Of a DNA stretch of 64,000 nt, positions 15,785-62,641 are shown in pieces; position 1 is the stretch's first letter; each line of letters starts with the position of its first letter. The notes beneath the pieces are model-generated. The model did no database searches, was not told the DNA's origin, and was given only the letters and a program-made list of their open reading frames with translations. The DNA comes from Ulota crispa (Eukaryota > Streptophyta > Bryopsida > Orthotrichales > Orthotrichaceae), in NCBI GenBank assembly GCA_963920765.1, contig OY987245.1:14586727-14650726 (forward strand), read 5' to 3'. The translations under genes were made by a program, and so were the position numbers.

Positions 15785-16200
15785 AAGGGGGATCCTATTT
15801 TCCCTACCCTATTTTTTTCTACAGTATACTGAAGTGGAGGTGTTATTCACTACCCTGTTTACATAAAATGAAGCAAGAGACATATTTTCAAATGCTATGG
15901 TAGATCTAACAAAAATATATAATTTTTCTCCAATGAATAAAATTGACTCTATTTCATCTCACCTAGTTTTCTAAAATTTCAATGGTCACCCCCCAAGCGC
16001 ACAATACTTCTTTTTTGTTATGCATGCATACAAAGGAAGAAGAGAAGTGACATGCACAACAAAAAAACACTTGAAAATTTTGGTCCAAGGGTATTTGTGA
16101 AATTTCTAAAGAAACATAAGCATCTATGAGAATATGGCAAACTTGAGGGGTATCCATGAAATTTTCCCATAAAATAATTTGCCAAATTCTTAGATGTCCT
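15785..16200. repeat. Worn repeats: inverted relative of 26765-26968, then half a Mutator-like MITE
   Basis: 15785-15965 (CCCTACCCTATTTTTTTCTAC, AATGAATAAAATTGAC) is inverted relative to 26765-26968. 15970-16190 matches the right half of the MITEs at 35440 and 37331 (TTTTGGTCCAAGGGTATTTG, GGGGTATCCATGAAATTTTC). Confidence 0.65.
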
Positions 16201-17699: not shown

Positions 17700-20179
17700 G
17701 GAGAAGCTCTTAGAAGCATTTTTATAAACCATTGGTGACACTATCACGCTACCCATCATCTTGGATGACAAATAGCAATTTATCATCCTTGATGCTATGA
17801 AGCAATGCTTTTTTTTTGGGCAATTTAAGGCCCAGTTCCCCAAAAAAAGGAGGTTAGTTTCAAGCCTATAAAGAAAAAAGGGGGAAAGAAAATGCCAAAT
17901 TCTAATAGCGAAAATTGCATTGCAATCAAGGCTTCCAAAAAATTCTTGTCAAAAATTGAAAATCGATGCCATCACTTTAAAATTATTTGAGGTATTGTCT
18001 AATCCAATACCATGCAATAATTAAGTAATGCTAATGATTGTTTAGATATTTTCAAAAAAAGGTCAATGAATATTTTTTGCCTACAAAAAAAATCCCATGA
18101 TGCTGCAAAAATCCACGCAAAGGGGCCGCCTTCAACTCCAACCAAAAATAGGATGGAGCTTGCAAGCTACAAACCATTTTCAAAGAATGCCACACAAGCA
18201 TTGGTCGGAAAACCCAAAAAAAAAACCGTGTTGAATGCCCATTTCCATTGCACAAGTGAACGTCTTTTGGTGAGAATTTTTTTGTCTTCTTCTCTGACGT
18301 GGGTCCACCGACATGGGTTTGAAATGAGTTTCTCAAACGTATTTAGAATGCGTCAGTGAAACAAGTTCTCTTGTATGACGCATTCCCCCATTTCAAGCAA
18401 CTAATGAGAAGGTTCCATGTATGACCTCAAAAGGTGGTAGTAATGATGTGGGACCTTGGTGGTGAGATTTTGAAACTTTCTTGTGCTTTTAGTCTTTACT
18501 TGTATATTTTTGTCCATCCACATTCCTCTTAAGCATCTTGTTAATGAGAATGAGATTCCATGTGAACACAGCTGACGAACTGCAGGTGGACGTCCCGGTG
18601 AGAATGGGGGATGAGAAATCATTCTTGAACGACTTTTAGGACTTCGGCGACCTTCACGCGTAAAGTGGTCCGAATCCGGCTATGTCGCTGCTGTAGGGAT
18701 CCGTGCCGTGCCCGGGACTACAGTCGCCCCTGCCGTCATTGGACCATTTATGAGAATCTGGGGTATCTTCAGGGTGGGTTTGCCAGCTCCGATAACTTAT
18801 CGGTGAAGACGTCCCGCCCTGCTCCAGCTATAAGAATGGAAGATAGCTGTGGGCTCTTCATCACTTCAACCTGCAACTCGCGCTCTGGAGCGTAGGTGGA
18901 TGCCTGTATGGAAGCGTCGAAGCCTAGCTTGTTCTTGCTCCTAACTCTTTTGCTGGCAAGTGCCGCGTTTCGTTATCTGTGTTTGCGTCTCGTATTCTAG
19001 CTGGTTTGCACAATTCTGATGGGTTTATCATGGTGTTTATTCTTCTCTTGCAGTTTTCTGGGTGGTACTTCATTACTGAGAGAGATCGAGTGTTGTGGAC
19101 CTCTATGACGGTTGCGATTTGAGCTTCCATCTAGGCCGATCCAGCTCCGGGGTTGTAACCCCATTTACCGACAGTCCCACGCGGTTCTCGACATCGGCTT
19201 CTCGATCATTTACTTGGCAAGCGGGTAACAGTTTGAACGGCCTACGCTCTTTTGTTTGTACTTCTGTAGTGAATGTGTCGAGGCTTTTGTTTAGAAAGAC
19301 CTTGGGTTTTAGGGACCTGCCCCTTCACTTCGTGCTGGCTTGGCTGCGAGTGTGACCGCAGTTCTCCGATTGCTTTTACATTACGGAGTTCTCTCGCAGA
19401 ATTTGTGAAAGGAGACGAGATGATGGGAGATCCAGGCACTTCCGACACAACTGTACCGGACATACTTCCTCCGTGGAGTCCTGCGTTCTTTTCAGATGCT
19501 CCCAGGCCTGGCCATGAACCGAGCGCTCGCTCTTCCTCGACTGACCTCCATAGCCGACCTCCTCCACATCTTCAGTTGGATCACCACCCTGCTGTGTCAT
19601 TCAGGTACGCAAATATGAAGCAATATTGTTAAACCATGGTAGTGAGCAGACAAAGCGGTTGTGGATTGCATCCCGGAGTCAGGTGCCACAAGAAATCGGT
19701 ACAAAATGATGCGCTTGAAGCTCAGTAGCGTGATTTCTTGGGTACTTAGGGTGGAAACACCCATTGCCACCACAGCCCCATTCCCAACCAGTAGGGTGGG
19801 CTATTTCCACCATGAGCAAGGATAGGTGTTTTGGAATGCGATTTTTTGTCTTTTTCAAGGCTGAGGCTAGTTAAGTTATGTCAGATGTCTCAAAATGAGG
19901 TAGGAAGGAATGAACTGAAAGTAGTTTGACTAATATCGGAATTGCATACATCTAGACATTGACAATTGGCAATGGGTGTGGAACACATCTTGACTCCCAA
20001 AATTCATAGCAATTTCAGTTTTGCAAAGAAAATTATGAAAAAATTGTAATCCCAATGTTTCTTATCTTCCTGCATGGGAAAAATAATTTTTGCTTCAAAC
20101 TCTTTGTAGTTTTCTGCAGAATCGCTTAAGTTATCGGATATGGGTGCTTCCACCTTATCGCCCTTCTTTTCCCGAACAG

Positions 20180-23100
20180 GTATAACGGATCTGAGGAGTG
20201 GCGCAACCGAGATTCTCAAGCCGCATTTGGATCTTTCATCGGACACTGCAACGGGACAGACGACACGGTGGACCTGATGACAAGCGCTGGGGTTGGAGAA
20301 GGTGATCTATCACAGAGTATCACAGAGCAGTTTGAGCTAGAACGTGTAGCAATTCGTGATAGTGAGAGCATTGTTATTGTAATAATTCTTCACTACGTTT
20401 CAGAGATTGATTTGGACGACTCTCAACAGATATTTAGTTATCCGTGCGTGCTGTGACCGTGAGTGCAGATGATTTGCTTACGTACCCAAGAGGTGAAGCG
20501 GACGCCGTGACAATTACTGCAAGAGATCTAGAGGGTCTGCAGCCCGGGAAGTTTGTGAGTGACAACATAATCGACTTTTACGTGAAGTGAGTGATTTGGT
20601 CAGCAAGCTGTTTGTTGAGTTGTGCAAGTTGTTTGAATACTGTGGACGTTGATGTTTTGTGTACTCTCGATGTAATCGACCATCCTTGAGAAATTTGTTG
20701 GTATTTTGGAACAGTTATTGACTCTTGGCATAAGTCTTAGAGCTTTTGCTGTTGCCTACGAGGGTTTTTTTTGGTTTTGGACCGGCAGCTTCTCAGGCCA
20801 TATGGTAATTTTTAATGGTGCAAATATGGTCATACAAATATATTTAAAAGTGTAAAATTAGGCTGCAAGTATTTACATTTTGAACTTGTTAATTTTGACC
20901 AAATTTTCCTAAAATCAATGACTGGTATTGGAAGAATGAATTTTATGAAAAAGTGGGTTACAAAACCCAAAAATTTATAATAAAAGAGATGTTATCTCAA
21001 AGAAACTTAAAGGTGGCTTGATTTTCAAATAATATTACTCCACATGGCATGAAGACCACATTGTTTTTGCCTAAGTTCCAAATTGAATGGCTACAAACAA
21101 CAACTTTTTTATTTTTTAATGTGTGACAGGCATCTGACAGGCATCTGACATTTGGCACCATGAGACTATTTGTTCTTCATGTTTTTGTATAGGCATGTAG
21201 CTTGAATTTTTATTTTTGTAGCTTTTTGGCTTTGAAAAGCCTAAAAGAAAAATTCTGTTGCCTACTGTTGTTGCAGATACTTGAATTTAGAGATTCTATC
21301 TCAAGACTTGGAAAAGCAGCAACGAGTCCATTTCTTCAACAGCTTTTTCTTCACAAAGTTTTTAGAGAGCACTGAATTTGGGAGCAGGTTTTTGAGGGCG
21401 GTGGATTATGAGCAATTGCAGAGATGGATTGGGGATGTGAACCTGTTCGAGAAAGATTACATTTTTATTCCAGTCGTCCGAAGGTGGTTTTGCTTTTCCT
21501 TGTATCTCCTAGTGTTGGTTGCAGATTGTGAGATGTTTTCAGTTCTGTGTTTCAAGAGCGCGTTTGGTGAAGGATTTGCTGAACATTTATTTGACTCTTG
21601 AGATTGTAATGGCCACGTGGAGTGATACATTTACTGAGAATGTGGAACATGCACGTATGCTGGAAAGAGGCCTGTTGAGGGGCGCATATTCATGGTGAAT
21701 GTCTTTTTTGAACGGCAGATCACATTGGAGCCTTATCGTCGTTTGTCACCTTGGAAGGCTTGTTCCAAACACACTTGGTAAGGCAATATTTCTTAGCATG
21801 ATTGAGCTGCAATTAATTACGTTGTAGTAGATTGTTTGTTTGATTTATCCATGTTGATGTTTTTTGACAGGTGAGAAGGAGGGCGCACCTTGTATACTTC
21901 ACTTGGACCCGATGAAAGGAAAACATGAGTGCTTTGAAGATCAAGTCAAGGGGTGAGCCCCCTTTAGACAGATTTTTGTTTTGAGGGTAGTTTCACACTA
22001 TCGCTAACCAAGTTGAGAGGCAGTGGGATTGAGTGGCCAAATTTTGTTGAGAGATCAACAAAATGGGATGAAAATAGGTAATAAAATATTGTTTTTGACA
22101 CCTTTGGCTACCCCTAGTGTGAAGCCTCCAAAGGCCAAGTCCAAAGGTCAAGTTCAAAGGCCAAACTCTTGGCAATGAGCTTCCACGACCTTTCAACTTG
22201 AATGGTCATAGTGTGAAGCCTCCCAAGGCTAAACCCAAAGTCCAAAGTCATAACATTTATTAGGCCTTCCAAATCTAACGGCCAAGATCTTGTTGGCTTT
22301 TGTTTAATTTATGAAAAAGTTAACGACCTCTCAATCATAGTTTGGGTCTCCATTTTAGCTTGACCCAAACTTTTCTTGAGAGGCTATCGTTTTGGATGAA
22401 AAGACGTGTCATAGGGGACAAGGGACTACGAACTTTGGCCTCTCTTGTGATGGGTCAAGAGGCCAAACTCTTGATTTCTTGCAATCTGATTGGTGGAAAT
22501 TGTTGGCCTCTTGACCTTTGGCTATAGTGCGAAGCAGCTCTGAAAAGCTTGTAGACTTCTTGTGACATTGATGTTATAAGATTTCCATGAATTTCGTTTT
22601 CACAAGATTTGCCGTACTTTGAGAAAGTCATGTGAATGGATGTAGTCGCTAGGGTGTATGGTGGTTGTGAAGTGATAGTGTTGGACCTAGAGCGATTTGA
22701 AGAAAATTGGCATTAACTTGCTAAGTTGCAACGGATAGCACAGGTTGAAGATGCTGTAGGAACCAAAGAATCCGAAATGGGAAGTAATAGTCTGAAATAG
22801 TATTACTCTGATTGTGAGCTAAGCATGACTAAAAAATGGTTGTTACGTCTAATTACCGCGATAATTGTGTATGATGTGCAGTTTTTTACATCATGCATGT
22901 TTGGTAACGTTGCAAGGTGGGTGCCATCTGGGTGCATTACTTACTTTGAATAAAATGAAGAATGTACAAGCAAAGGTACAAACTCTCATGCCTAGCATAT
23001 TCATTAAATGATTTGACGGGTTTTGTTGTTTGATGCGCACTTGTTGTTCCTCCAAAAAAATTGACGTGGGGTGATGTGGTGGAATTCTCAATGAGCGGGT

Positions 23101-23230
23101 GGTCGTGGTTGCTAGGTTCCACAGCAAGACAATGGTTATGATTGTGGTATGTACGTCTTGCATTACATCGAAGTGTTCATGTCAAAGTGGACATTGAGTG
23201 ACTCAAGTTTCTATTCATGTCAAGGGGATG
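20180..23230 (+). other. ULP2/SENP6-7-like SUMO protease (peptidase C48) domain of copy 1
   Basis: The exons carry the C48 landmarks in order. 'ADAVTITARDLEGLQPGKF' and 'DNIIDFYVK' match the N-terminal substrate-binding segment. 'HFFNSFFFTKF' and 'WIGDVNLFEKDYIFIPV' match the SENP6/7-ULP2 branch. The catalytic His is in 'SHWSLIVVCHLGRLVPNTL', the Asp in 'PCILHLDPMKGKHECFEDQ', and the Cys in 'VPQQDNGYDCGMYVLHYIEV'. The spread over many small exons argues for a host gene rather than the intronless C48 genes captured by some Mutator or CACTA transposons. The middle exon between Asp and Cys is unrecognised; the matching stretch near 22547-22600 has stops in both copies. Confidence 0.82.
21985..22540 (+). 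mobile_element. PIF/Harbinger-like MITE inserted in copy 1
   Basis: Copy 2 has the uninterrupted site (TTTGTTTTGAGAAGCTTG on its coding strand, TGA at 53567-53569). Copy 1 has 556 extra bases there, flanked by TGA (21982-21984 and 22541-22543). The ends are imperfect inverted repeats: GGGTAGTTTCACACTAT versus GAGCTGCTTCGCACTAT. A 3-bp TNA duplication with G-rich ends suits PIF/Harbinger (Tourist-like) elements. The phrase TAGTGTGAAGCCTCC also recurs inside (about 22116 and 22209). No coding capacity. Confidence 0.75.
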
Positions 23231-23429
23231 ATCAGTTCACCAACCCAAATTTTGAGACGGAGGTTTCAGACAAACGCAAGCAAATACGCAATCAAATACA
23301 AAGGCTCATCTTGGAACATGGTGGAAGAATGCAAGGACATAATAACAGTCCCTCAGATGCTCAGGAAAAGTCTCTAGAGGAAGTTGGATTGGTGCAACAG
23401 TTAAGAGTGCAATGTGATTGTTCAAGGAG

Positions 23430-23955
23430 CTGTGCAAAGGAAACCAAAAGCAAGAAGTTTACACAAGAGGAAACGTCAATTTTGTTGAAGTGCATGCTTG
23501 ATGTTCGACAGTTTGGTATCAAGGATAAGCAAGGTGCTATGCGTTGGGATCTCATCTCCCAAGAGATCAACAAACGCAATGGTGGGCACACAAGGTCAGA
23601 TGATCAGTGTCGACACCGCTTTGATACTTTATTGAAGGCGTACAAGAAATTGGATTTTTTTTGCAAGAAGAGTGACAAGACGTTTGTGGAGATCTCAGAG
23701 GCTCAGAAGCTAGATTTGCAGTTGGCGACACCATTCAAGAAGGAGAATGAAGCATGGTTCAATGATTTGCGCACAATTTGTTGCCAACGGGCTTCTTTGA
23801 AAGGCAAACCAACAAAGCGTCAAAAACTCAAACGTGATGGTGATATTGATATTAACAAGCCTCAATTAAGTCATCCTGATTTAGTAGTGCAAAAACTAAT
23901 GCCTTCAGAGTCAATTGGAAGCGTGCATCCCAAGAAAGCAACATCAAAACAAGTT
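23430..23955 (+). other. Myb/SANT (trihelix)-like DNA-binding domain in the same exon as the protease Cys
   Basis: One open exon (23116-23955) runs from the protease 'YDCG' motif into 'KFTQEETSILLKCMLDVRQF', 'MRWDLISQEINKR' and 'TRSDDQCRHRFDTLLKAYKK'. That pattern (W..IS.EI, RS..QC..RF..LL..YK) is typical of the Myb_DNA-bind_4/trihelix fold. A basic patch, 'KGKPTKRQKLKRDGD', looks like a nuclear localisation signal. The exon ends at a strong donor (GTT|GTAAGT). Similar Myb/SANT domains also occur in ORF1 of PIF/Harbinger transposons, so a transposon origin of this piece is possible. No transposase is nearby. Confidence 0.75.
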
Positions 23956-24231
23956 GTAAGTTTGGGCTCATGTTGTGTTTAATGGAATGAGGGTAGTCAA
24001 TTTTGGTGAAACAAGAGATGATTTGTATGATTCAAATTATTGATCTGTGTGGAAATTGATTTAGTTTTATGAAACAAGGTTTTGGAGAAGTTGGTAAATT
24101 GCTTTAGAAGTTTAAGGCAGATGAGCATTAGAGTGAATTGCATATTCAATTTTCGGGAGTAGGAGGTGAATTGGTTGTGACACTAATATGATGTTTGTTT
24201 TCTTTTTTTTATTGGGTTTTGGATGATGTAG

Positions 24232-24420
24232 GCCATTCCGGGATTTGGAGCCCTAGACATAGAGTTGAAATGCACTCTTCTAAATATGATCCAAGTTTGT
24301 TCAATGAATACTTGGATAAATCAGTTTAAGGAGGGGATTGAAGAAATTGGTTTATTGGAAGGGATATGCAGGATGCTAGTGGTTGTGCAAGATTAAGATC
24401 TATTGGAGATTTGCAAACAT
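24232..24420 (+). other. Linker exon of copy 1 with premature TAA
   Basis: It begins 'AIPGFGALDIELKCTLLNMI' and ends 'LLEICKH' at a GTAAGC donor. The frame follows directly from the Myb exon (phase 0). Copies 2 and 3 have the same exon, with 'EQNPLEICKR' where copy 1 reads 'D*DLLEICKH'. The CAA glutamine codon of the other copies is TAA at 24394-24396 here. I recognise no domain. Confidence 0.7.
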
Positions 24421-24672
24421 GTAAGCACTAGTTACTAATGTATTGGGTTTGTGATTTTGGTGTGATTTGTATTGCTGGTTATGAGATCAAGCTTGTGTGT
24501 GCACATCTTTTTGCACAAATGGTCAAGAGTGCCTTTGATATGAACATAAATCATTTTGTTCTTGTTGATGTGTTTATTTCCTCATTGAATGGTATTGTGT
24601 GCTTCTTTACAAAATGGTTACGTGAATTATTGATGACTACTAAAATTGTGTGGCAATTTTTTTGTTGCTTAG

Positions 24673-25837
24673 GTTTATGAGCTAAGGAATCTTGAACTTG
24701 TGACCATGGTGGATTGCCCTCAAATGATCAAAAATACAAAATAAATGGAAAGATTGCCAAGGGATATCTTTGCCACGTTTAAAGGTGTTCAAGAAGTTTG
24801 GAGAGAAAGTGTTAAGGAAGAATCCTCACTTGAGGACTATTTGGAGAGTAACTTGTGGAGATGTCTTTGTGATGACGGTATTTCCATTGCAACAAATACG
24901 GGCTTTGATTTTATCAAATTGTCAAGAACTTGAGCATGTTGATTTGGGGAACTTTCCTGAGTTACGCTTCCTTCACATCCAGTGGTGTGAAAATTTGAAG
25001 AGTGTTGGAGGGTGGGAAGTTGTCCATAAATTGGGATGGATTGATATTTACAAATGCAATTCATACTATGAATTTCCTATTGTGCAATGCCTTCCTTCTT
25101 TGAAGGAGTTTTCCTATAGTAATTATCATAATCAAAACATGGATTGGCAATCAATCGACTTTAGCAAATGCGTCCCATTGCAAAGACTAAGAATGGAGCA
25201 AAATTGGCATTTGGCGGAAAGTATGGAACTTGGAGCATTGAAGTTTTTGGAAGTCTTGTCACTTCGTGGGTGTTTTAGACTTTTCACCATCCATGTCTTG
25301 AAAGGACTCCACACTCTTGCTAAACTTGACCTTTCTAATTGCAACACCTTGAGAAGGATTCCAGAATTGGGTTGTTTGAAGGCTCTTACTCACCTGAATA
25401 TGAGTTGGAGTGGTATAGTGGAGATTCCAAGTGTGGAGGCGTTGCATTTATTGACTTCATTGAACCTAAGATATTGCCTAGCTTTGGAAACTCTACCATT
25501 TCTAGGTCATTTGAAGGCATTAGCACATCTCAATTTGAGTTCAAGTGGCATTCAAGAGATCTTTGGCGTAGAGGACTTGATCAATTTGAAGACTTTGGAA
25601 TGCCAAGGATCAAAGTTGTTGAAGCTTCCTAAATTAGAACACTTGCCTCATTTGCAAGATGTAGAAATAAGGGATACACCTTTATCAAAAGAAATGCATC
25701 CATCAAAGCCTTTGTGTTGGATTACTCCTTTGAGTCATCCTTGTAGGGACAAAGGAATAATATTTGTAGATGATGTTAGTGATATTAGTGACACTGGTGA
25801 CCTTACTTCCAATGCCAATTCCTCCAGTGAGGATTGA
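24673..25837 (+). other. Leucine-rich-repeat exon of copy 1
   Basis: The first codons read 'VYELRNLELV' in phase with the linker exon, then meet TAA at 24742-24744 after a one-base insertion relative to copy 2. From about 24770 the original LRR frame is open to 25837. It holds roughly ten repeats of 22-24 residues, for example 'HTLAKLDLSNCNTLRRIPEL', 'KALTHLNMSWSGIVEIPSV' and 'INLKTLECQGSKLLKLPKL'. The end is acidic and Ser-rich (VDDVSDISDTGD). The repeat style resembles the C-terminal LRRs of plant NLR immune receptors, but no NB-ARC or TIR motif is seen in the window. Confidence 0.85.
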
Positions 25838-28423: not shown

Positions 28424-29141
28424 CCCCTAAATGACCAAGTATCCCCTTAGGCGACAAATGGGATTTTAGGCATGTACTTATGGCTAAACTACTTTGTGTG
28501 ATTTTTTGAAACTTTTATGGAAGATGGGAATTCAAAGATTTGTGTGGGCATCTAGTTTTTTCCTCATTCCGATATTTATTGATGAAGTTAAAAAAAAATT
28601 TATGAGAATTTTTGTTTAGCGGGCAGCCCAAAAACTTCTTTAAAAATTTCATTTTTTAAAATAAAAATTTGAGGTTAGTTCTTTAGACTTACGTATATGT
28701 GGGAAGCTTTGAATCATTCGATTCCAATGGATGAGATGAAAGTTATGAGAAGTTTTAGTTTGCAGGTAGGTGTGGAAAATCTCAAAACTATGCCTACACG
28801 CAAACTAAAACTTCTCATAACTTTCATCTCATCCATTGGAATCAAATGATTCAAAGCTTCCCACATATACGTAAGTCTAAAGAACTAACCTCAAATTTTT
28901 ATTTTAAAAAAATGCAATTTTTAAAAAAGTTTTTGGGTTGCTTGCTGAACCAAAATTCTCATAAATTTGTTTTTAACTTCCTCAACAAATGTTGGAATGA
29001 GGAAAAAACTAGATGCCCACACGTATCTTTGAATTCCCCATCTTCCATAAAAGTTTCAAAAAATTACACAAAGTAGTTTAGGCATAAGTACATGCCCAAA
29101 ATCCCATGTGTCCCCAATAGGGACAAGTGGTCCTTTTGGGG
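28424..29141. mobile_element. Fold-back element flanked by TTAA
   Basis: TTAA at 28420-28423 and 29142-29145. The ends read CCCCTAAATGACCAAG and GGTCCTTTTGGGG, followed inward by inverted GGGGACAAATGGGAT-type sequence. The two halves are inverted almost entirely, with the centre near 28785 (AGTTTTAGTTTGCAGG / GCAAACTAAAACTTCTC). No transposase. Confidence 0.7.
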
Positions 29142-33346: not shown

Positions 33347-33516
33347 CGGTCAGTTTGATAAGACTTCAAAACTTCTTCAAGAGATGATCGTGCTATTTTG
33401 ATGTCTTCTCCAATCCTTGCCACCGATGCATCGGTCAGTTTGATAAGACTTCAAAACTTCTTCAAGAGATGATCGTGCTATTTTGATGTCTTCTCCAATC
33501 CTTGCCACCGATGCAT
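33347..33516 (-). repeat. Exact 85-bp tandem duplication in last exon of the kinase gene
   Basis: The units 33347-33431 and 33432-33516 look identical base for base. The upper unit ends exactly at the splice acceptor of the last exon. Because 85 is not a multiple of three, the second unit is read in a new frame. The ending inferred for the unduplicated gene, 'SYQTDRFFRM', becomes 'SYQTDRCIGGKDWRRHQ...' with a stop at 33377. Confidence 0.93.
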
Positions 33517-36500
33517 CTAGACGCAAGTATTCGAAAGCAATCAATAACTGATTTAGACAGAAACTCGAACACCCAAACCTTTGGAGCAACAAAAGAAAGC
33601 AGGAGGAAGAAACTAACCTAAGGAGCTGAACTTCATTTCAGGTCGGATAAACCCCAGGACTACAACAACGACATCTTTGCCATAGAAGTTGATTTCATAA
33701 TCGTGTAGGATGTGCACTTCCTACAAAACGTCCAGTAGAATACCATAAGTCAATACAAGTTATAAGACTTTAGACACATTTTAGATGATAAATTTTGTGA
33801 ACTTAATATACCATGTTGATAGCTTTACAATTTTAGCATATCAAACCATAATTCGTGTACTGAAAATATAATTAATATATATTCTTGATGAATTATCACT
33901 ATTGAATGCTTCTAAATTGATTCGAAAATGATTTATGAAGATTGATTGTATAGATGTCTACTTATCATCATGCTTAACGTCATTTTAAAGTCAATATAGA
34001 GGTGCTTGGATAAGGTCAACCTTTGTAAGAGAAATGTTTGGATAGTGTCAAGGTCCTCATGCTCTTTTTTGTGTTTTGGAGTAGTTGAATGGAATGTTCC
34101 TTTAACCCTTAATTTTTTCAACCATTTTGAAGGAGTTTTGGACCTCAATTTTGTAAGTTATGAAAGGGTGAAGCTTAACCCCTGAACATCCCAAACGCCC
34201 TTTGCGACCGTACGTATGGCCGTATGTACAGATGTATTTGAGCTATTTTGAGGGCTTTCCAAAAAAAAATATGCATCCACCATCATACAACCCTTCAATA
34301 TGTATGGTTGGAACACTTGATTTCTAGCTGATTCAAACTTCTGTATAGTGGTTGCGATTGTATTTGGTACCATATCTCTAGAGCCCAAGGGGACATTTAA
34401 GGGTTAAAGAATGATGAGTCATTTTTAGGCCATAGTAACCGTAAGATCTTATAGAGAGCCAAGTCTTTATCATCTCTGCAAAGTTTGATTTCAATCCAAG
34501 GGTTTAATTGGAAGATTATAACAAAAATGTAAAAGGTACTAAAAGGAAACCAATGTTTTGGAGTAGTTGAAATTGTGCTTTGATTGGCTCTTTTGGACAC
34601 ATAACATTTTAAAAAGTTGGCATCTTATGCTCATTCTCAAGGTAATCAAGTTCCACACGCATAGAAACAAGTCTTGTATTTTTAGGGTAAAAAATGAGTG
34701 AGAAAATGTTCTTGCAATAGTGACCACTTTACCCTTAAATTTCAAAAACTGTGAGTAAAGTTGAAGACGTTCACAAATCTAGGGCCAAAATTTAACACTA
34801 CAACTCCAAGACCACCCATAGTTTGAAAATTTCTGTAAATTCAATGGTGACTCTTCTTTTAAATTTGAAAACACCCCTACATAGCTAACTTGTTTATCTT
34901 TCAAATGAGTCAAAGTTCAAGTGACTCTTCACATTCCTAAGGTCATAAATGGCATTGCTAAAAACCGATCAACCCAATTTGGGTCGATGAAAAATTTAAG
35001 GGTTAAAGTCAATGCTTGGATATGATCAACAATTTTTTCTCTCCCAAAGCATTGACCTTATCCAAGCACCACTGTATCCCCAAAAAGCTGTGAAAGTCGA
35101 AAATTAGAGCATATTTGCATATTACTCTAAAACCTTGCAGGCATTCAGGGGTGGGTCGAGGTTCACATCACAAACATTGTATGTAAGGGAAAAAGGCTTA
35201 CAAGGGAAAACTTACAACAGAAATAGCATCGCTGTCAGCGAAAGTGGGACGATTTCCAATGTTCATAACCATCTTATGAACTCCAGCATCTGGACCTTCT
35301 CCCCTCACTTGCACCCATCCAAAGTAGACACCTTTGGGAAGGCCTTGTATTTCCTTCGAGAGTTCTTCGGGACTGAGATTTGCTGATTCAAAGACCCAGA
35401 AACAAATAAGTCTTGCACAACATGGAGTTTAATAAAAAGGGAAAATTTCATGGATACCCCCGAAGTTTGCAATAATTTCATAGATACCCCTGCTTTTTCA
35501 GATATTTCACAGATACCCTTGGACCAAAATTTTCAAGCGTTTTTTTTTGTTGTGCATGCCATTGCCCTTTTCCCTTTGTGCGTACACTACTTTCTTGTAA
35601 TGCGTGCGCACAAAGGAAGAAGGGAAGTGGCATGCACAGCAAAGAAAATACACCTGAAAATTTTGGTCCAAGGGTATTTGTGAAATTTCTGAAAAAGCAG
35701 GGGTATCTATGAAATTATTGCAAGCTTCGGGGGTATCCATGAAATTTTCGCTAATAAAAATACGAAGAAAAAAGAGAAAGCGAAATGACAAGCTCTTGGA
35801 CCAAAAATAATAATCGAAGGAATAACAAGGGAAGTAAAGTTATGCTCACCTGTAGGAATGCCCATTTGCTTGCTTCCGCGGCCAAATCCATACACCACCT
35901 TGGCCAAGGCATAAAGAGGAAACTCACCAATATCTGCTCTTGAAACAAGAGGTCAAAGTTTCAAGTTTAAAAGATATACTGCATAAGCTTGAGAAGCGAA
36001 GAACTAGAAGTATTCGATGTCAAAGGTGGACTGACAAATAACACATACCTGAATAGTCGATCGCTTTCTCTGTTTTCCTAACAGATTCATTGACCTGTGA
36101 CGAGCAAGCCAGTCACTTAATACAATGTAAGAGTAGGCAAAAGAAACTGAGTTGAAAAAGTTACATGCAAAAGTACAGCAAAACACAACAAAATAAGAGT
36201 TGATCGTAACCCTGACAAAACAATGACCAACCAATGCTTACCTCAAGAGCAACAAGGTACGCTGAGGAATCACTCTGAAAGCTGACAGACTACATTGGCA
36301 AACCATTTATCATGCTTTGCAGTTCCTCTAGTTCAGGAAGATAACGCAGGAGAATGTGCGGATACATTTCTCGATAAGGTGCTAAAAAGTCGTTCCCATA
36401 GATTTGAATTATCACCACCCTTGCTCCTGCAATTTCTTTGTGTAAGGTTTCAAGCATGAAACAAACTTGCAGTTCAAAGAAATCTTGCCTCGTCTAAATC

Positions 36501-39500
36501 AATGCCGCCTTTGCCACATATCAACGTATTACATCCGCGCAAAGGTAGACTCACTCAATAGTATGATATGCAAAGCCCAGAAGCAAGCGTCAAAATTACC
36601 TTGAAAAAGAGAAATTTACAAGACATTCATTACCAATAAAACTAACGTCCTTTCTGAAAATTGACAGACATTAGGCAATAAATGTTATAAACTAATACAA
36701 GTCGAGATTCCTTTCGAGCTCTTTTCCAGATACCTTTCAATCGTCTACCAAGATAAAGTTGAGAGGTAATTTTGCAAATCTAAATATAATCGCAGCTTCA
36801 TTACATTAGGGAAGGGACATTTCAATTCTAATATATAATATTTGAACAATAGCAAACTTACCCGTCCTACAGCGGCTGATGACAGAGTCGAACAAGGTGG
36901 AAGCTGAGAAAGCCATGGCAGGCGAGTGACCAAGGAAGACAGCATCATACATCCCCCAAGAGTGAGGTAACTTTTCCACATTCCCATGCCAGCAGCGGAT
37001 CGCATCATCCGAGGCCTTGATGCTGGCTAGCTCCAGCAAGGACCAGTGTGCCACCACCGTGTTCACTCCCAAGCTCCTCAGAAGTGGCACTAGAGAAATA
37101 CATCCTGGCCCCACCAAGGCATTGGATCTGAGAGGGGATTATATTCACATCCGTGAAACAAACCGAAGACTCAAACTAACAGCAATTCTCTTCCAGAAAC
37201 TGCATAACATTCTTTAGTCATTCAAACACTATACTCTTTCTATATACAGATGTTTAGGTTTGGCACTGAAATAGCGCTTGCCAGCCACAAACCTAGACTA
37301 AAGATGAGTGATTGAAACCTAGTGATTCAAGGGAAAATTTCATGGATACCCCTGAAGTTTGCAATATTTTCATGAATACCCCTGCTTTTAAAAAAATATC
37401 ACACGTACCCTTAGACCCAAAAATTTAGGCATCTGTTTTGTTGTGCATATCACTTCCCTTCTTCCTTTGTGCGCATGCATAACAAGAAAGAAGTAGTGTG
37501 CGCACAAAGGGAGAAAGAAGTGACATGCATAACAAAACAAAGGCCTGAAAATTTTGGTCCAAGGGTATTTGTGATATTTTTGAAAAAGCAAGGGTATCTA
37601 TGAAAATATTGCAAACTTCAGGGGTATCCATGAAATTTTCCCATAATTTCAATGATACAAACAACCAAGATGAAGCCTAGACACACTTCCAAGAAAGTTA
37701 AGTGATCAGGAAGGAAAGCATCGGACGAATAAAGAAACATTTTTCTCAGAAAACTTCGATGAAGCAACTAACATTGAAGCACATCTTTCATTAAATGAAA
37801 CAACCCTTTGTAAAATAACAATGTGTACACAAGTACCTGAGCTTACCCTTTTTCCACTAAGCCTGCTGCAACGACCTTCTTTATCCAGTCCGGCGGATCG
37901 TTCTTAGCCTCAAAGAACTCTCCAGTCTTATCAAAGAAGCTCTCGAGAATCTGGCTATGCTCGACCTGACCTGCTTCGGATGCTCCAGACACGGACGTTC
38001 ACGATCCACGGACAACAAATTGCGCCTTGCTTTTCTGGAAAGATCAACACAGGACGTCCAAAAGAAAAAGAAAAAAATCTATCAGTAACACAAAACATCT
38101 CATCGTTACAACGTGTACTTTATTTACAGTCCGATATACTTCTTTGTAGGTTTAGTATTTTTCAAAAACAATGTCTTCATGTACCTTTAGATGAATAAAA
38201 CTAGAAATACGTTTTACAAATACACAGTAATCCCAAGCTCTCATCTCAAGCCACTTCTTGATTGACTCAACATTCACTCAAAACTAAAACCACCTACACT
38301 AACTATCATAAATAGCACTAAGTGCACCGAACGGTTTAAAAGCAATGGAGGTAGACGACGCTGACAAGAAAGAACAACAGAAAGATTCGCATCGTGAGGA
38401 ATGCGCATCACAGAGCATGCCATTGCCCTTTAGTAGAAATTCTACACTAAATAGTGCATTTTTAAGTTGCCTCGACAATTGGAAAGTTACCTTATCATTC
38501 ATGGTTAGGCCACTACTTAATTGGACGTGCATTCAACTCTCTAGGTTTTGGGATTTTGCATAGTTTACAACTTAGACATCGCTAGTTTGTTTTAAGAAAC
38601 TTTGTTGTTATTGCTAGGCTCCTTTTTAAATTGTTTGTTGCAGTAATTCTTGACAAACTAAATTGTAATATCAGTAAGTAAGTACTTACATTGTGTAAAA
38701 TGTTGAGAAATTAGTGTTGAGCAACCTAAATGCACTATTTCGTGTAGAAAAACTAGCGACAAATCGATTTGCCATTCACAGCACCTACTACGCCACACTA
38801 AGTTATAACCATTTTTCTCTCAAAGACATGAACACAAAGGTTGCTACGAAACATTGCTCACAGCTCACAAGATGATGATGTTGTTTATACTATTCGTATG
38901 CACGATCAGTGTCACCATCACCATAGCCAGAAGACTAACCCTTCCTGTCTGTCGGGGAGTTATGACCATGCCTCCAGGTTGCGAGGTTTCCCTATCTTCT
39001 ACAACATTACCATTCTCCGTTGCTAGTCTGCTGCTTACATTCCTTTGATTCTCTTTCCTGGTAGCCCTGATTCTGTGTCTCCTGTAAGCCAGACAGACAG
39101 AGCCGATCCTCGTTAAGCCCCGTGCGCACCAACCAAACAGCAAGTACACCTAAATAAATTAGTTACTAACACTCCAGTTGATCTCATAGGCGCTACCTAA
39201 TTAGCGGCTTGAAAATAACCAGGTTCGCCTCTACAATTCCATTACTAAACCCTAACCCTAGCTACTCACCATTCCGCCTACAGAGCATAATCCTCACTTC
39301 CAAATTCCATTGACAACACTTAAAAAAACTGCACTAGTTGTCAATTGCATGTTTTAAGGAATTTGTGATTTACATCAAAAAAGGAATACTTGTTTGTGTT
39401 ACAAAAAGGCTTATGAACACGAATGCAAGCAAGCATTTGGAAAAAAACGCACTTATCCGTGCTTGAAGGTATGGTCTCGCCACCTCGCTTGTCAAGTCCA

Positions 39501-48798: not shown

Positions 48799-49678
48799 CC
48801 TCAGTAAGTTTTCCTTTACACCTATTTTGTTGTTTAAAAAACTCTATAAAAGATAGAGTAATTTAAATTTTTGTGCTTTGTATTATGGTTTTGTAATTCT
48901 CATGCAGTCCCAATCAAGCATATCAAATTTTAGTTCCAAAAATAAAAAACCCATTTTTGGTGAAATGTTTCATGTTAAAATTCATAGTATTACATGAAAA
49001 TTGATTGAAGAAAATTGGTGATGAATTTTTGAGATTTGAATGCATGGGTATGTAAGGAACATTCATATGTACCTTTCATGTTAAAACATATAGCTTTGAG
49101 TTACAAAAACATGATCTACAAAGAAATCAATGCAAAATCAACTTGGGGTGTGGTAGGACCAAAATTTGTAAAATAGATATTTCATTATGAAAATCATATT
49201 CTGCTATTTGACTCATACACCATGATTACATTTGTACCTTTGAGTATGAAAATGTAAACACTTAGCCAAAAGCTAGTTGGAATATAAAGATATCTATGTT
49301 ACAAATTTTGGTCCTACCACACCCCAAGTTGATTTCGCCTTGATTTCTTTGTAGATCATGTTTTTGTTACTTAATGCTATTTCTTTTAACATAAAAGGTA
49401 CATATGAATGTTCCTTACATACCCATGCATTCAAATCTCAAAAATTCATCACCAATTTTCTTCAATCAATTTTCATGTAATACTATGAATTTTAACATGA
49501 AACATTTCACCAAAAATGGGTTTTTTATTTTTTGGAACTAAAATTTGATATGCTTGATTGAGACTGCATGAGAATTACAAAACCATAATACAAAGCACAA
49601 AAATTTAAATTTTACTCTATCTTATATAGAGTTTTTTAATAGCAAAATGGGTCCGAATGTAAACTTACTGAGGGGTAT
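48799..49678. mobile_element. Fold-back element with ~385-bp arms
   Basis: The left arm (CCCCTCAGTAAGTTT, ... GGGGTGTGGTAGGACCAAAA) is mirrored almost base for base by the right arm (TTTTGGTCCTACCACACCCC ... AAACTTACTGAGGGG), around a spacer of about 100 bp. Related single arms occur near 8690-8830 and 60510-60780. No coding capacity. Confidence 0.85.
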
Positions 49679-50249
49679 TGTACAATAGGAAAGTCATACG
49701 AGGTAAAGCCACTTCACACACTTTCTAATGTACTTGTCTTATGCTCAATAAATGTTAAGAGTGTCAAATCTTAAGGGCCTTGTAGAGGGTTCATATTTTT
49801 GCTAATGCATTGCTTTGTTTGATATTTTTCATATACTAATCTTTGATTCTTCTATATGGACATAGCTGATTCTATTATCAATAACATAATATTCATTAAT
49901 TTGGGAAAAGACCCAATTTTTGAACTTTTGGATTTTGTGTTTTCGATCGAGATTTCAATAAACACTCTTTTGAAGATTCACAAAAATGTTTGTAAATTAT
50001 TATTATAGAGCCATGGCAATAGAGAGCACAAAAGTTATAGCAAATATTTTTTTAGATATTTTTAATATTGAAGCTCATTTTACGTTTGTTATGAACAATA
50101 GATTTATTCAATTCAAAATCTACACTTACAATTGAACAAGGTACAATGTATTAAAAAAATAAAAAGAAATGACAACATAATTCCAATTTGAATAATTGCA
50201 CAATCATTGTCATCATTCAATCCTCATCACAAGAATTGGCATTGGAACT

Positions 50250-51394
50250 TCAGTCACCAGTGTCACTACCATCACTGACATCTTCTACAACTATTATTCC
50301 TCTGTCCTTACCAGGATGAATCCAAGAATTTTTCCACCATGAAGGGTTTGATGGATCCACTTCTTTTGATGAATCCATTTCTTCTGATAAAGGTGTCCAC
50401 TTTGTATTTACCCACTGCAAATGAGGCAAGTATTGCAAGTTGGGAAGACTCTTCAAGTTTGAATATTCACAATCTAATGTCTTCAAATTGATCAAGTTTT
50501 GTACGCCAGGAATATCCTCTATAGAAGTTTCTGCCAAATTAAGATGAACCAATGCCTTCAAATCACCTAGAAATGGTAGATTTTTCAAACTTCTGCAACA
50601 TGATATATCCAATGAGGTCAATAAACACAATGTCTCTACACCTTCAATGTCGACTATACCACTTCCTCTCATATTCAGGTGAGTAAGGGCCTTTAAACAA
50701 CCCAATTCCCGAACATTTTCCAAGTATTTGCATCCACTAAGGTCAAGTTTAGCAAGAGCATGCAGTCCTCTCAAGCCACAAATGGTGGAAAGCTTGTCGC
50801 AAAGTTTCAACGTCAAAATTTCCAAGAACTTCAATGATTCAAGTTCCATACTTTTCCACATATGGCAGTTCCCATATATTCTTAGACTTCGCAATGGCAT
50901 GCATTTGCTGAAGTCAAGTCAGCTAAATGCATATCGATTTGGTTATCAAGATACTCGTCAAAGGTAAACTCTCTTAAAGAGGAAAGCCATTGCACATCGG
51001 GTATTTCACTGTACCTCCTGCAATCGGATATCTCAATCGATCCAAGCTCTTTGACAGCTTCCCACCCTCCAATACTCTCCAACTTTCCACAACAAGAGAT
51101 CTGAAGGCAATGCAACTCAGGAAGGTCTCCCAAATTCAATTGCTTAAGTTCTTGACATCCATATAAATTCAAAACCCTTATTGGAAACATCGTCGGCGCA
51201 AAGTAATCTCCACTAGCTGCTCTCCAAAAAGTCCTCAAGTGAGGATTCTTTCTTAACACTTTCTCTCCAAACTTCTTGAACACTTTTAAACGTGTCAAGG
51301 ATATCCTTTGGTAATCCTTCCATTCATCCAAATCTTCGATCATTTGAGGACAACCCACCAAATTCACAAGTTCAAGATCTCTTAGCTCATAAAC
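50250..51394 (-). other. LRR exon of copy 2 with 5-bp frameshift
   Basis: It begins 'VYELRDLELVNLVGCPQMIE' and contains 'DEWKDYQRISLTRLKVFKKF', then repeats such as 'HALAKLDLSGCKYLENVREL' and 'CLLTSLDISCCRSLKNLPFL'. A duplicated AAGTC (50911-50920, plus strand), absent in copies 1 and 3, moves the first part into an early stop at 50882. The second part is open from 50900 to 50250. The acidic tail ends 'VVEDVSDGSDTGD'. Confidence 0.85.
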
Positions 51395-51647: not shown

Positions 51648-51881
51648 ACGTTTGCAAATCTCCAATGGATTTTGCTCGTGCACAATTGCCAACATCTTGC
51701 ACAACTCTTCCAATGGAAAATTTTCTTCATTCCAATTCTTCCCATCTGTTTTCCAATCATCCCAAAATGGTTCCCACCGATTCATTGAACCAGCTTGGAT
51801 CATATTCATTGAATCAGCTTGGATCATGTTCAGAAGAGTGCATTACAACTCTATGTGTAGATCTCCAAATCCCGGGATGGC
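51648..51881 (-). other. Linker exon of copy 2
   Basis: It starts 'AIPGFGDLHIELQCTLLNMI' after a CAG acceptor and ends 'EQNPLEICKR' before a GTAAGT donor. It is longer than in copies 1 and 3 because of extra residues after LLNMIQ, including a near-repeat of 'NMIQADSM' as 'NMIQAGSM'. It is open throughout. Confidence 0.7.
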
Positions 51882-52192: not shown

Positions 52193-52762
52193 AACTTGTT
52201 TTGAAGCTGCTTTCTTTGGATGCACACTTCCAGTGGGCTCTGAAGGCATCGGTCTTTGCACTGCTAAATCAAGATGACTTGATTCAGGCATGCTGATATC
52301 AATACCACCATCACATTTGAGTTTTTGACGCTTTGCTGCCTTGCCTTTTAAAGAAGCTTGTTGGGAACAAATTGCACGCAAGTCATTAAACCATGCTTTC
52401 GTTAATGGCGTCGCCAATTTCATACTCTTCTTCTCAGCATCCGTGATCTCCCCAAACGTCTTGTTTTTCTCCTCGCAAAAATCATTCAATGCCTTGTACG
52501 CCTTCAATAAAGTATCAAAGCGATATCGACATTGATCATCTGACTTTGAATGCCCACCACTGCATTTGTTGATCTCTTGGGAGATGAGATCCCATTGCAT
52601 ACAACCTTGCTTATCCTTGATACCAAACCGGCCAATATTGAGCATGCACTGTAGCAAGACTGAAGTTTCCTCTTCTGTAAACATCTTGCTTTTGGTTTCC
52701 TTTGCACGGCTCCTCCAGCATTTACGTTGCGTTCTTAACTGTTGCACCACTCTAACGTCCAC
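52193..52762 (-). other. Myb/SANT-like domain of copy 2
   Basis: Open from 52762 to the donor after 52193 (GTT|GTAAGT). It carries 'MFTEEETSVLLQCMLNIGRF', 'MQWDLISQEINKC', 'KSDDQCRYRFDTLLKAYKAL' and the basic patch 'KGKAAKRQKLKCDGG'. The surrounding exon order is the same as in copies 1 and 3. Confidence 0.75.
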
Positions 52763-52891
52763 TTAAGGTATTTCTTGAAAATTTGAGGGGTTGCTATCAA
52801 GATCATTCGTTCTTCCACTATGTTCCAAGATGAGGCTTTGTATTTGATTGCGTTTGTCTGAAACCTCCGTCTCAAAATTCGGGTTGATGAA

Positions 52892-54852
52892 CTAATCACC
52901 CCCTTGACATAAAAGGAAACTTGGGTCACCTGACGTCCACTTTGACAGAAACACTTCAATGTAATGCAAGATGTACATACCACAATCATAGTTGTTGCCT
53001 TGCTGTGGAACCTGGCAAAGATACCCACCTTCAGAATGAGGATTCCACTGCGTCATCTCACATCGAATTTTGTAGGAAAGACCATTGTGCCTCAATTGCA
53101 AGATGTCTAAAATCATTTCAGGAGTATGCTAGGCATGACACTTTGTACCTTTGGTTGTACATATTTTAAGTGATCCAATGCATCCACATTCAATTTGCCT
53201 CCATCTGTGATAATCTTCAGCCCTTCTTGACGTAGAAAGCTGCACATTGGACCCACTTACCACATTCATTGTGCGTAGCAAGATCATTTCTTAGTGCAGC
53301 TCAATTTGCAATCAAAAACGTCCCGTACTCCTTCCATTTGAGATTCTACAATCGCAACGACACCTTCAGCGGTAGTCGTTGCAACTTAGCAAGTCACTAC
53401 CAGGATTCCTTATATCACTCAAGGTCTAACTCTATCACTTCACAACCACCATACACCCCAGCCGCCACATTGAGCCTTATGACTTTCTCAAAGTATTTCA
53501 GAATTGATAGAAGTGAAATTCACGGAAACCCTATAGCATCAATGTCATAAGTAATCTACAAGCTTCTCAAAACAAAAATCTGTCTGAAGGGGCTCATCTC
53601 TTTACTTGACCTTCAAAGCACTCATGTTTCCCTTCCATCGGGTCCAAGTGAAGTATACAAGGTGAGCCCTCCTTCTCACCTGTCAAAAACACATCAGCAT
53701 GGATGAATCAAACAAACAATCTACTACATCATAACTGCAGCTCAATCATGCTTAGAAGCATTGCCATATCAAGTGTGTTTGGAACAAGCCTTCCAAGGTG
53801 ACAAATAACAATGAGGCTCCAATGTGATCTGCCATTCAAAAAAGACATTCACCATGAATATGCGCCCCTCAACCGGCCCCTCTTTGGCATACATGCATGT
53901 TCCACGTTCTCAGTACATGTCTCACTCCACGTGGCCAATACAATCTCAAGAGTCAAATAAACGTTCAGCAAAACCTTCACCAGACGAGCTCTTGAAACAC
54001 AAAAATGAAAACATCTCACAATCTGCAACCAACACTAGGAGACACAAAGAAAAGCAAAACCACCTTCGGACGACTGGAATAAAAATGTAGTCCTTCTCCA
54101 ACAGGTTTACATCCCCAATCCACCTCGGCAATTGCTCATAATCTGACACCGTCCTCAAAAATCTGTCCGCGAACCCAATGCTCTCTATATACTTTGTGAA
54201 GATAAAGCTGTTGAAGAAATGGTCTCGTTGCTGCTTCACCGAGTCTCGAGATAAAATCTTTAATTTCAAGTATCTGCACCAACAGTAGTCAACAGTAAAA
54301 GCTCTCAGCCAGGAGTCAATGACTGTTCTAAATTATCAACAGGTTTCTTAGGAAATAAGGCCAATTGCATCGACAGTACACAAAACATCAACGTTCACAG
54401 TATTCAAACAACTCGATAACTCAACAAACAGCTTGCTGAGAACCAAATCACTCACTTTACATAAAAGTCGATTATATTGTCACTCACAAACTTCCCGGAC
54501 TGCAGACCCTCCAGGTCTCTCGAAGTAATTGTCACAGCGTCCGTTTCGCCTCTTGGGAACGTAAACAAATCATCTGCACTCAAGGCCATAACACACACGG
54601 CGGACTAAATATTCATTAAAAGTCTTCCAACTCAATCTCTTGAATATGGTTAAGAACATGTACAATAACAATGCTCTCACTACCACGAATTGCTACACGT
54701 TCTAGTTCCAACTGCTCTGTGACGGATCACCTTCTCCAACCCCAGCGCTTGTCATCAGGTCCACCATGTCAGCCGTCCCGTTGGAGTGTCCGATGAGGGA
54801 TTCAAATGCGGGTTGAAGAGCTTGGTTGCGCCACTCCTCAGATCCGTTATAC
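52892..54852 (-). other. ULP2-like SUMO protease domain of copy 2
   Basis: Readable motifs are 'DAVTITSRDLEGLQSGKF' with 'DNIIDFYVK', 'HFFNSFIFTKY', 'WIGDVNLLEKDYIFIPV', then His in 'HWSLIVICHLGRLVPNTL', Asp in 'PCILHLDPMEGKHECFE', and Cys in 'VPQQGNNYDCGMYILHYIEV'. The frame is closed by TAG at 52892-52894, where copy 1 has CAG, just before the segment leading to the Myb domain. A protease-only product is conceivable, but two lost splice donors upstream make it unlikely. Confidence 0.78.
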
Positions 54853-55894
54853 CTATTGGGGAAAAGAAAGGCGATAAGTATCCAAAGAATCACGCTTCTG
54901 AGCTCCAAGCGCATCATTCTGTGACCATTTCTTGTGGAACCTGACTCCGGGATACAATCCCCAACCGGTTTGTTTGCTCACTGCCACGGTTTAGCAATAT
55001 CGTTTCATATATGCGTACCTGAATAACGCAGCAAGAAGGTGATCCAACTGATGATATGGAGGAGCTCGGCTATGGAGGTCAGTCGAGGAAGAGGGTGCGC
55101 TTGGTTCATGGGCAGCCATGGGCGAGTTTAGGAAGAATGTATCCCTACCCGGACGAGGCAGCTCCAGTACAGTTGTGTCGGTAGTGCTCAGATCTCCCAA
55201 CATCTCGTATCCTTCCATGAATTATGCGGGACTACACTCAGCAATGTAAAATCAATCAGAGAACTGCGGTCGCACTCGCAGCCAGAGCGTCCAAGACGCT
55301 CCTCGGGGACGCTCCTCACCCAGCACAAACTGAAGGGGCAGGTCCCTAAAACCCAAGGTCTTTCTAAACAAAAGCCTCGGGCCCTCGACACGTTCACGAC
55401 AGAATTACAAACAAAAGAGAGTATGCCATCCAAGCTCTTACCCGCTTGCCAAGTAAATGAGCGTCACGGCACGAACGAGAAGCCGATTTCGAGAACCGCG
55501 TGGAATAGTCGGTAACTACGGTAACGAGCCCGGAGCTGGAGCGGCCTAGATGGATGCTCAAATCGCAAGCATCATACAGGTTCACAGCACCCGATCTCTC
55601 GATCTCTCTCTAATGAAGTGCCACCCGAACAACTGCAAGAGCAGAACAAACACCACAATACTCCCATCAGAATTGTGCGAACCAGCTAGAAAACGAGACG
55701 CACACATAGAAGCTAAGCAAATGGTATAGCGAAGAGCGGCACTTGCCTGCAAAAGAGGTAGGAGCAAGGACAAGGCTTCGACACTTCCACGCAGGCATCC
55801 ATCGAGACTCCAGAGCGCGAGTCGCAAGTTGAAGTGATGAAGACCTCGCAGCTGTCTTCCATTCTTATAGCAGGAGCAGGGCGATATGTCGACA

Positions 55895-61189: not shown

Positions 61190-62341
61190 AAGAGCACAAA
61201 AGTTATAGCAAAAGCTTCTTTAGATGTTTTAATATTGAAGCTCATTTTACGTTTAGTAGGAACAATAGATTTATTCAATTCAAAATCTACACTTGCAATT
61301 GAACAATGTACAATGTTATTAAAAAACTAAAAAATAGAGAGATGACAACATAATTCCAATTCAATAACTGCACAATCATTGTCATCATTCAATCCTCATC
61401 ACAAGAATTGGCATTGGAACTTTTGTCACTAGTGCCACTAATTGCTAACATCACTAGTGTCACTATCATCACTAACGTCATCTACGACTATTTTCCCTAT
61501 GTCCCTACTAGGATGAATCCAAGAAATTCTCCACCATGAAGGGTTTGATAGATCCATTTGGTATGAAAACGCTGTGCATCTTACATGCATCCGCTGCAAA
61601 TGTGGCAAGTGTTGCAAGTTAGGAAGTCTTGACAACTGTGACCAAGAACAATCTAATGTCTTCAAATTGATCAAGTTTTGTACGTCAGGAATCTCTCATA
61701 TGCCACTCGATCTCAAATAAAAATATGCCAGTGCCTTCAAATCACCTAGAAATGGTAGATTTTTCAAACTTCTGCAATAGGCTATATCCAATGAAGTCAA
61801 TAAACACAATGTCTCTACACCTTCAATGTTGACTATACCACTATCACTCATATTCAGGTGAGTAAGCACCTTTAAACAACCCAATTCCGAAACCTTTTCC
61901 AAGCCTTTGCATCCACTGAGGTCAAGTTCAACAAGAGCATGCAGTCCTCTCAAGCCACAAATGGTGGAAAGGTTGTCACAATAATTCAACTTCAAAATTT
62001 CCAAGAACTTCAATGATTCAAGTTCCATACTTTTCCACATATGGCAATTTCGATATATTCTTAGACTTTGCAATGGCATGCATTTGCTGAAGTTAGCAAA
62101 ATGCATATCGTTTTGTTTAATACCATACTGTCCAAAGGTAAACTCTCTTAAAGAGGAAAGCCATTGCACACCAAGTATTTCACCGTACCTCCTGCAATTG
62201 GATATCTCAATCGATCCAAGCTCTTTGACAGCTTCTCACCCTCCAATACTCTCCAACTTTTCACAACAAGAGATTTGAAGGCAACGCAACTCAGGAAGCT
62301 CTCCCAAATTCAACTGCTAAAGTTCTTGACATCCATATAAT

Positions 62342-62641
62342 TTCAAAACCCTTATTGGAAACATCGTCGGCGCAAAGTAATCTCCACTAGCTGCTCTCCA
62401 AAAAGTCCTCAAGTGAGGATTCTTTCTTAACACTTTCTCTCCAAACTTCTTGAACACTTTTAAACGTGTCAAGGATATCCTTTGGTAATCCTTCCATTCA
62501 TCCAAATCTTCGATCATTTGAGGACAACCCACCAAATTCACAAGTTCAAGATCTCTTAGCTCATAAACCTAAACAACAAAACATTTTGCCACACAAAGTT
62601 AGAAGTAGTTATCAACATTCCAGGTCACTGTTTTGTAGAAT
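62342..62641. repeat. 300-bp tract identical to 51168-51467
   Basis: Partner of the tract in copy 2, in the same orientation, about 11.2 kb away. Flanks in the same exon and intron differ at several percent of sites. Confidence 0.92.

Follow-up and report, generated by a model that had tools for sequence, protein, structure and literature searches.

The 64,000-nucleotide stretch of Ulota crispa DNA considered here (‘the window’, lying on contig OY987245.1, below C4, at C4:14586727-14650726 of an assembly of 274.8 Mb and 157 contigs) carries members of a gene family in which a ULP2-like SUMO protease of the Peptidase_C48 (C48) class, a Myb/SANT domain and a leucine-rich repeat (LRR) region are joined in that order. 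A genome search with the exon that encodes both the catalytic Cys and the Myb/SANT domain (the ‘Cys-Myb’ exon) finds six copies on C4, spanning ~147 kb, copy numbers from this search being lower bounds. As delimited by a six-copy alignment, these are c1 (14606146-14612563) on the plus strand, followed on the minus strand by c2 (14636943-14641929), c3 (14648115-14653129), c4 (14672332-14677220), c5 (14718899-14724629) and c6 (14747760-14752764); c1 and c2 are inside the window, c3 runs past its end, and c4 and c6 lie outside it. The opposite orientation of c2 and c3 with respect to c1 is seen both by repeat search and in the alignment. Away from the array, the single match to the Cys-Myb exon, among the matches listed, is a Myb-type frame on contig C6. 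At the level of gene models the three-part family is real, with the copies in the window broken; an intact locus, to which the first-pass annotation of the window had looked for support, occurs twice, as c4 and c6.

The alignment defines ten exons with boundaries common to all six copies. Read from its 5′ end, copy 1 (plus strand) opens with exon 1 (19420-19604), an N-terminal segment of low constraint with a GT donor and a putative start codon, which moves the coding start to ~19420 from the 18836 first proposed, and continues with exon 2 (20180-20301). The C48 domain begins in exon 3 (20469-20586; ..DNIIDFYV|K), the donor position of which is common to a ULP2-like gene on contig C9, and extends through exon 4 (21277-21483; Pfam C48, 3.7e-07, in the frame 21284-21484), exons 5 (21719-21777; SHWSL) and 6 (21871-21952; LHLDPM), with what we take to be the catalytic His and Asp, and exon 7 (22882-22975), which in the phase of the model is free of stops in every one of the six copies. 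It ends in exon 8 (23116-23955), open and recognised by Pfam, where the presumed catalytic Cys (VPQQDNGYDCG), the C-terminal helix of the protease, the Myb/SANT domain and a basic KRQKLK patch all fall within one exon; a linker, exon 9 (24232-24420), and the LRR, exon 10 (24673-25837; Pfam and alignment), complete the gene. The order protease, Myb, linker, LRR, as originally described, is thus recovered by Pfam matches to C48, to C48 and Myb_DNA-bind_4 together in one exon, and to LRR. Introns 1 (19605-20179), 3 (20587-21276) and 6 (21953-22881) of copy 1 exceed their counterparts in the other five copies by ~410-570 bases, the extra length probably representing insertions.

On the minus strand, the alignment likewise bears out the full order in copy 2 and the order Myb-linker-LRR in copy 3. 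The LRR exon of copy 2 lies at 50217-51394, its exon 9 at 51648-51881, its Cys-Myb exon 8 at 52193-53011 (found also by the search with that exon) and its protease exons 1-7 at 53149-55203; in copy 3, exon 10 is at 61389-62568, exon 9 at 62822-63013 and the Myb part of exon 8 at 63301-64000, from where it extends beyond the window end, just past which the protease part is located.

Splice sites are conserved, as the first-pass annotation had claimed for the copies it could see: across nine introns in six copies, 50/54 donors are GT and 53/54 acceptors AG, with the five lost sites confined to the broken copies c2, c3 and c5 and all 18 sites canonical in each of c1, c4 and c6. The junctions that tie the Myb exon to the LRR are especially well kept, the exon 8 donor, exon 9 donor and exon 10 acceptor being present in 6/6 copies and the exon 9 acceptor in 5/6; introns 8 (276-311 bases) and 9 (252-253 bases) are, in all six, too short for a likely intergenic gap. 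When spliced, c4 and c6 give 1009 and 1036 codons, respectively, with no internal stop in either; in both, exon 9 reaches its first in-frame ATG at codon 19 (counted by hand). Since an in-frame stop lies closely upstream of exon 1 in c2, c3, c5 and c6, coding probably begins in exon 1, the precise start codon being putative. Chance adjacency of the three domains, already argued against on the strength of the window, is excluded by six copies with conserved junctions.

An intact three-part copy inside the window is ruled out by stops and frameshifts in c1, c2 and c3. Copy 1 had been read as continuing in phase to the LRR; its junction phases do fit, but exon 9 contains an in-frame TAA (24394-24396), and exon 10 a one-base insertion and a TAA at codon 24 (24742-24744), such that the LRR is open solely in another frame (24728-25837). 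As exons 1-8 are open, copy 1 could still encode a protease-Myb protein, and because its LRR frame runs for 365 stop-free codons while differing from c6 by a synonymous distance of 0.40, the loss of the LRR reading looks recent. Elsewhere, copy 2 has an internal TAG and TAA in exon 8, one stop in exon 9, a frameshifted exon 10 with a 5-base indel, and has lost the donors of exons 5 and 6; copy 3 has a frameshift and stops in exon 8 and stops in exon 10; and the reading of c5 is interrupted in both exon 8 and exon 10, in addition to the loss of a donor and an acceptor. Accordingly c1, c2, c3 and c5 were excluded from the count of intact genes. In c5 the LRR exon has, moreover, taken up 744 inserted bases, and the 5′ flank holds ~5 kb of additional DNA, with homology to the other copies picked up again at 14729986.

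Comparison of the two open copies, which differ by an intron distance of 0.161, reveals a coding pattern: of the indels that separate c4 from c6, 9/9 in exons as against 4/18 in introns have a length divisible by three. When the c6 frame was subjected to 8% neutral substitution, about half of the c4-c6 intron distance, 1000 simulations produced a mean of 9.9 stops and 0/1000 stop-free frames. Taken part by part, the LRR alone stayed stop-free in 2.2% of simulations, exon 8 in 4.5% and exons 1-2 in 57%, so that coding is not demonstrated for the N-terminus taken alone. The ratio of nonsynonymous to synonymous change (dN/dS; Nei-Gojobori; all six pairs of c1, c2, c4 and c6, including the broken c2 and excluding c3 and c5) is 0.30-0.59 for protease exons 3-7, 0.46-0.64 for exon 8 and 0.80-1.61 for exons 1-2; for the c4-c6 pair it is 1.06 in exon 9, 0.92 in the LRR and 0.98 in the trimmed LRR, and for the LRR of c1 against c4 or c6 it is 0.73. 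The protease and Myb exons look to be under constraint, and the simulation together with the frame-preserving indels shows past constraint, being no measure of present expression. Ten exons open in c4 and c6, exon indels that keep the frame and protein-like selection all uphold the proposal that ULP2-like protease, Myb/SANT domain and LRR belong to one family.

The protease of c6 matches C48 at 4.7e-25 (89.1 bits against a cut-off of 20.7; positions 2-192 of 217), copy 1 providing a second C48 match at 1.3e-06 in its open frame 23116-23982, and the His (SHWSL), Asp (LHLDPM) and Cys (YDCG) segments are all present in c1, c4 and c6. In the PDB, the best sequence matches to c6 are SENP7 (6.7e-26 and 1.1e-25) and Ulp2 (1.2e-13), ahead of the ULP1-type SENP2 (3.9e-12); ranked in this way the protease is of the ULP2/SENP6-7 rather than the ULP1 type, in agreement with its first description as ULP2-like. 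Exon boundaries are held in common with the C9 ULP2-like gene after ..DFYIK, on both sides of the ..PVNQR exon, before HWSL and before VPQQ, with identical split codons at these positions (sequences compared by eye). The C9 gene apparently has one further intron ahead of the C-terminal helix, the residues of which (..AKRLVIQKLILEL) are similar to ..EKRSRIQSLILEH in c6 exon 8; within the 10 kb of the C9 locus, neither the Myb nor the LRR of c6 finds a match below E 0.5. On account of these common intron positions and the common helix, the protease half probably derives from a ULP2-type gene that was copied at the level of genomic DNA, the C-terminal helix being retained ahead of the Myb domain.

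Myb_DNA-bind_4 is matched above its cut-off of 27 bits by both copy 1 exon 8 (41.3 bits, 2e-10, frame 23116-23982) and c6 (30.1 bits). The Myb-type frame on C6 is 32% identical to the Cys-Myb exon over 101 residues, and its 10 kb locus, compared with c6, gives neither a C48 nor an LRR match below E 0.77; no PDB sequence matches the Myb/SANT part at E ≤ 1. The KRQKLK stretch follows the Myb/SANT domain and may act as a nuclear signal. In c6, exon 8 also includes a 96-base in-frame block with a second KRQKLK stretch, a segment found in c3 and c5 as well.

In the LRR frame of copy 1 (24728-25837) the best Pfam LRR match is 1.5e-15, and both copy 1 and c6 match R13L1/DRL21-type models, c6 at 9.8e-13. 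Among the matches listed (107 of 253 candidates scored), 13 of 29 off-array LRR loci lie ≤10 kb from an NB-ARC match, compared with ~0.4% expected at a random place; the array LRR resembles those of this genome's nucleotide-binding leucine-rich repeat receptors (NLRs). A Pfam scan of c6 returned no NB-ARC (E ≤ 0.1), TIR or RPW8 domain, and, of 54 NB-ARC matches genome-wide, the closest lies 2.2 Mb from the array, much as the initial reading of an NB-ARC-free gene would have it. NB-ARC is the domain that defines NLRs, and with it absent from c6 and so distant from the array, we rejected NLR membership. Elsewhere in the genome, at C5:22187433-22193927, a very long LRR frame (2264 codons) has the NLR-like segment MHDLWHDF close to its beginning; the NB-ARC match closest to this frame is 533 kb away.

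Substitutions within the repeats are concentrated on one face. Over 12 repeats, c4 and c6 differ in amino acid at strand positions 2, 4, 5 and 7 in 5/12, 7/12, 8/12 and 6/12 cases, respectively, and at the hydrophobic positions 1 and 3 in 1/12 each; between c1 and c6 the corresponding figures for positions 2, 4, 5 and 7 are 8/12, 11/12, 10/12 and 8/12. At the chosen exposed positions, c4 and c6 differ by 0.265 nonsynonymous changes per site, as compared with 0.043 in the remainder of the repeat region. For the first set of exposed positions, picked after the alignment had been seen, the test of nonsynonymous against synonymous change gives p 0.05 (c4-c6) and 0.019 and 0.020 (the pairs with c1), these pairs not being independent. 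Such a pattern supports protein-level selection on the LRR and suggests positive selection.

As to how the array arose, homology in the flanks ends at distances that differ from one pair of copies to another, and the nearest relative of c6 changes along its length: c2 in exons 1-5, then c3, c4 or c5 from exon 6 through the first half of exon 10, with c2 and c4 about equally close in the second half of exon 10. For these two reasons, we find that segmental duplication, accompanied by exchange between copies, is a better fit than a transposon whose ends are fixed. The sequences themselves show birth-and-death turnover in the array.

Bringing these parts together, we favour a reading in which the array is a tandem single-gene family encoding a nuclear chromatin deSUMOylase of ~1,040 residues, with the NLR-type LRR as its recognition face, a proposal we regard as evenly poised. 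The predicted protein would be nuclear; its Myb/SANT domain would place it on chromatin, where the ULP2-type protease would remove SUMO; and the variable face of the LRR may recognise a fast-changing partner, whether a protein from a pathogen or a host target that itself varies, which would in turn control or direct the protease. By analogy, we infer an action like that of integrated-domain receptors, with a SUMO protease as the output in place of the NB-ARC switch. Catalysis, DNA binding, nuclear location and an immune role are all predictions from sequence, and it is with more reserve, as a tentative extension, that we suggest an NB-ARC-free plant recognition protein with chromatin deSUMOylation as its output, in which a diversifying NLR-type LRR gates or aims the protease.

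Several observations weigh against such a reading. Stops or frameshifts are carried by 4/6 copies, from which it follows that the array is decaying, and the protease domain of c4 is without 9 residues at its start, leaving c6 alone with a full one. Within the LRR, changes between c1 and c6 are frequent off the strand also (position 10, 11/12; position 12, 8/12); synonymous change between c4 and c6 is itself higher at the exposed positions (0.176 vs 0.080); and with a strict xxLxLxx set the contrast of nonsynonymous with synonymous change is not significant (p 0.27-0.52). A C-terminal motif resembling a SUMO-interacting motif was dropped as evidence, 1 having been found where shuffled sequences give 0.42.

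With the LRR test this weak, one may ask whether the LRR is simply a scaffold or substrate-binding arm of a true three-domain gene, a specialised chromatin deSUMOylase outside immunity. The strongest constraint does fall on the protease and Myb exons, and the Arabidopsis ULP2-like proteins SPF1 and SPF2 are described as nuclear; we nevertheless think this account rather unlikely, given that the LRR changes between c4 and c6 fall at exposed strand positions while hydrophobic positions are kept, and that the genes lie in a birth-and-death array, a pattern more usual among recognition genes. The damage to four copies, the short c4 protease and the c4-c6 dN/dS near 1 in the N-terminus, exon 9 and LRR could instead mean that the whole array is a relic, with c4 and c6 as young pseudogenes, still stop-free, from which no protein is made today. 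Against this stand the roughly ten stops that the c6 frame should have gathered under 8% neutral substitution, with no stop-free outcome in the simulations, and the contrast between exon indels, all multiples of three, and intron indels, mostly not; we consider a relic distinctly unlikely.

A division into two neighbouring, separately transcribed genes, C48-Myb and LRR, we hold to be improbable. Left unspliced, copy 1 exon 8 does meet a stop within ten codons, and the ULP2-like locus on C9 and the Myb locus on C6 (10 kb each) are without any further part of the array protein at E < 0.5; yet the junctions across introns 8 and 9 are retained in nearly all copies, those introns are short, and exon 9 offers no in-frame ATG ahead of codon 19 in either open copy. 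Least probable by far is that a gene-capturing transposon, a Pack-MULE or KAONASHI-like element, built and spread the three pieces. C48 genes borne on Mutator-like elements (MULEs) are known in plants (PMC6117577), and cotton Zf-BED genes join C48 to a transposase-type domain (PMC9296551), but all close copies among the matches scored sit within the one ~147 kb array, homology continues beyond the gene for varying distances, and the intron positions agree with those of an ordinary ULP2-like gene.

The deSUMOylase reading sets the array protein beside several known systems. It resembles the plant ULP2-class proteases (SPF type and SPF-like) and human SENP6/7 in its C48 domain, closest structures and His-Asp-Cys segments, and the C9 ULP2-like gene of the same genome in intron positions; it differs from ULP2-class proteases in adding Myb/SANT and LRR regions after the catalytic domain, in its six-copy local array and in a Cys exon that continues, uninterrupted by an intron, into the C-terminal helix. 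An SPF-like ULP2 clade is restricted to bryophytes, lycophytes and ferns (PMC11371177), and a term search of the main text of that paper finds no mention of ‘Myb’ or ‘leucine-rich’. With NLRs that carry integrated domains the array has in common an NLR-like LRR, C48 and Myb/SANT-type domains and the presence of broken copies; Peptidase_C48 and Myb_DNA-bind_3 are each among the NLR integrated domains (PMC4759884), whereas the array protein combines C48, Myb and LRR without an NB-ARC switch, TIR or RPW8. A gene model named RPW8-RPW8-RPW8-Peptidase_C48 (PMC5039405) is alike in pairing C48 with an immune-type domain, the name of that single model including neither Myb nor LRR. The KAONASHI ULP-like proteases of MULEs are comparable as amplified plant C48 genes; these are transposon-borne and distant from true ULPs (PMC6117577), in contrast to the ULP2-type protease and segmental array seen here. 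In the literature searched, outside which most subscription journals fall, we found no C48-Myb-LRR protein and no paper pairing Peptidase_C48 with Myb_DNA-bind_4.

Provided that the intact copies are expressed, one polypeptide would combine the removal of SUMO with binding to DNA and recognition by an LRR, and, if the recognition role is true, an immune-type architecture would do without the NB-ARC switch and offer a direct path from recognition to chromatin. The array illustrates how a ULP2-type gene can acquire domains, the joining of divergent sequences to the catalytic domain having been put forward, in general terms, as a route to new SUMO proteases (PMC11371177). The c6 copy makes the proposal testable.

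As for the remainder of the window, ten other open frames, chosen from 72, have no Pfam match at E ≤ 0.01, and repeats of several kinds are present. An inverted repeat at 48925-49545, with 256-base arms that are 94% complementary around a 109-base spacer, looks like a foldback or miniature inverted-repeat transposable element; a second, at 28627-28936, has 144-base arms (91% complementary; spacer of 22 bases) and another relative near 58582. A perfect 85-base tandem duplication occupies 33347-33516. Finally, a 122-base repeat occurs three times (16057-16178, 35640-35761 and 37531-37652; 81-82% identity to the first), and the frames near the first two of these (16057 and 35640) contain a similar peptide, ENFMDTP.

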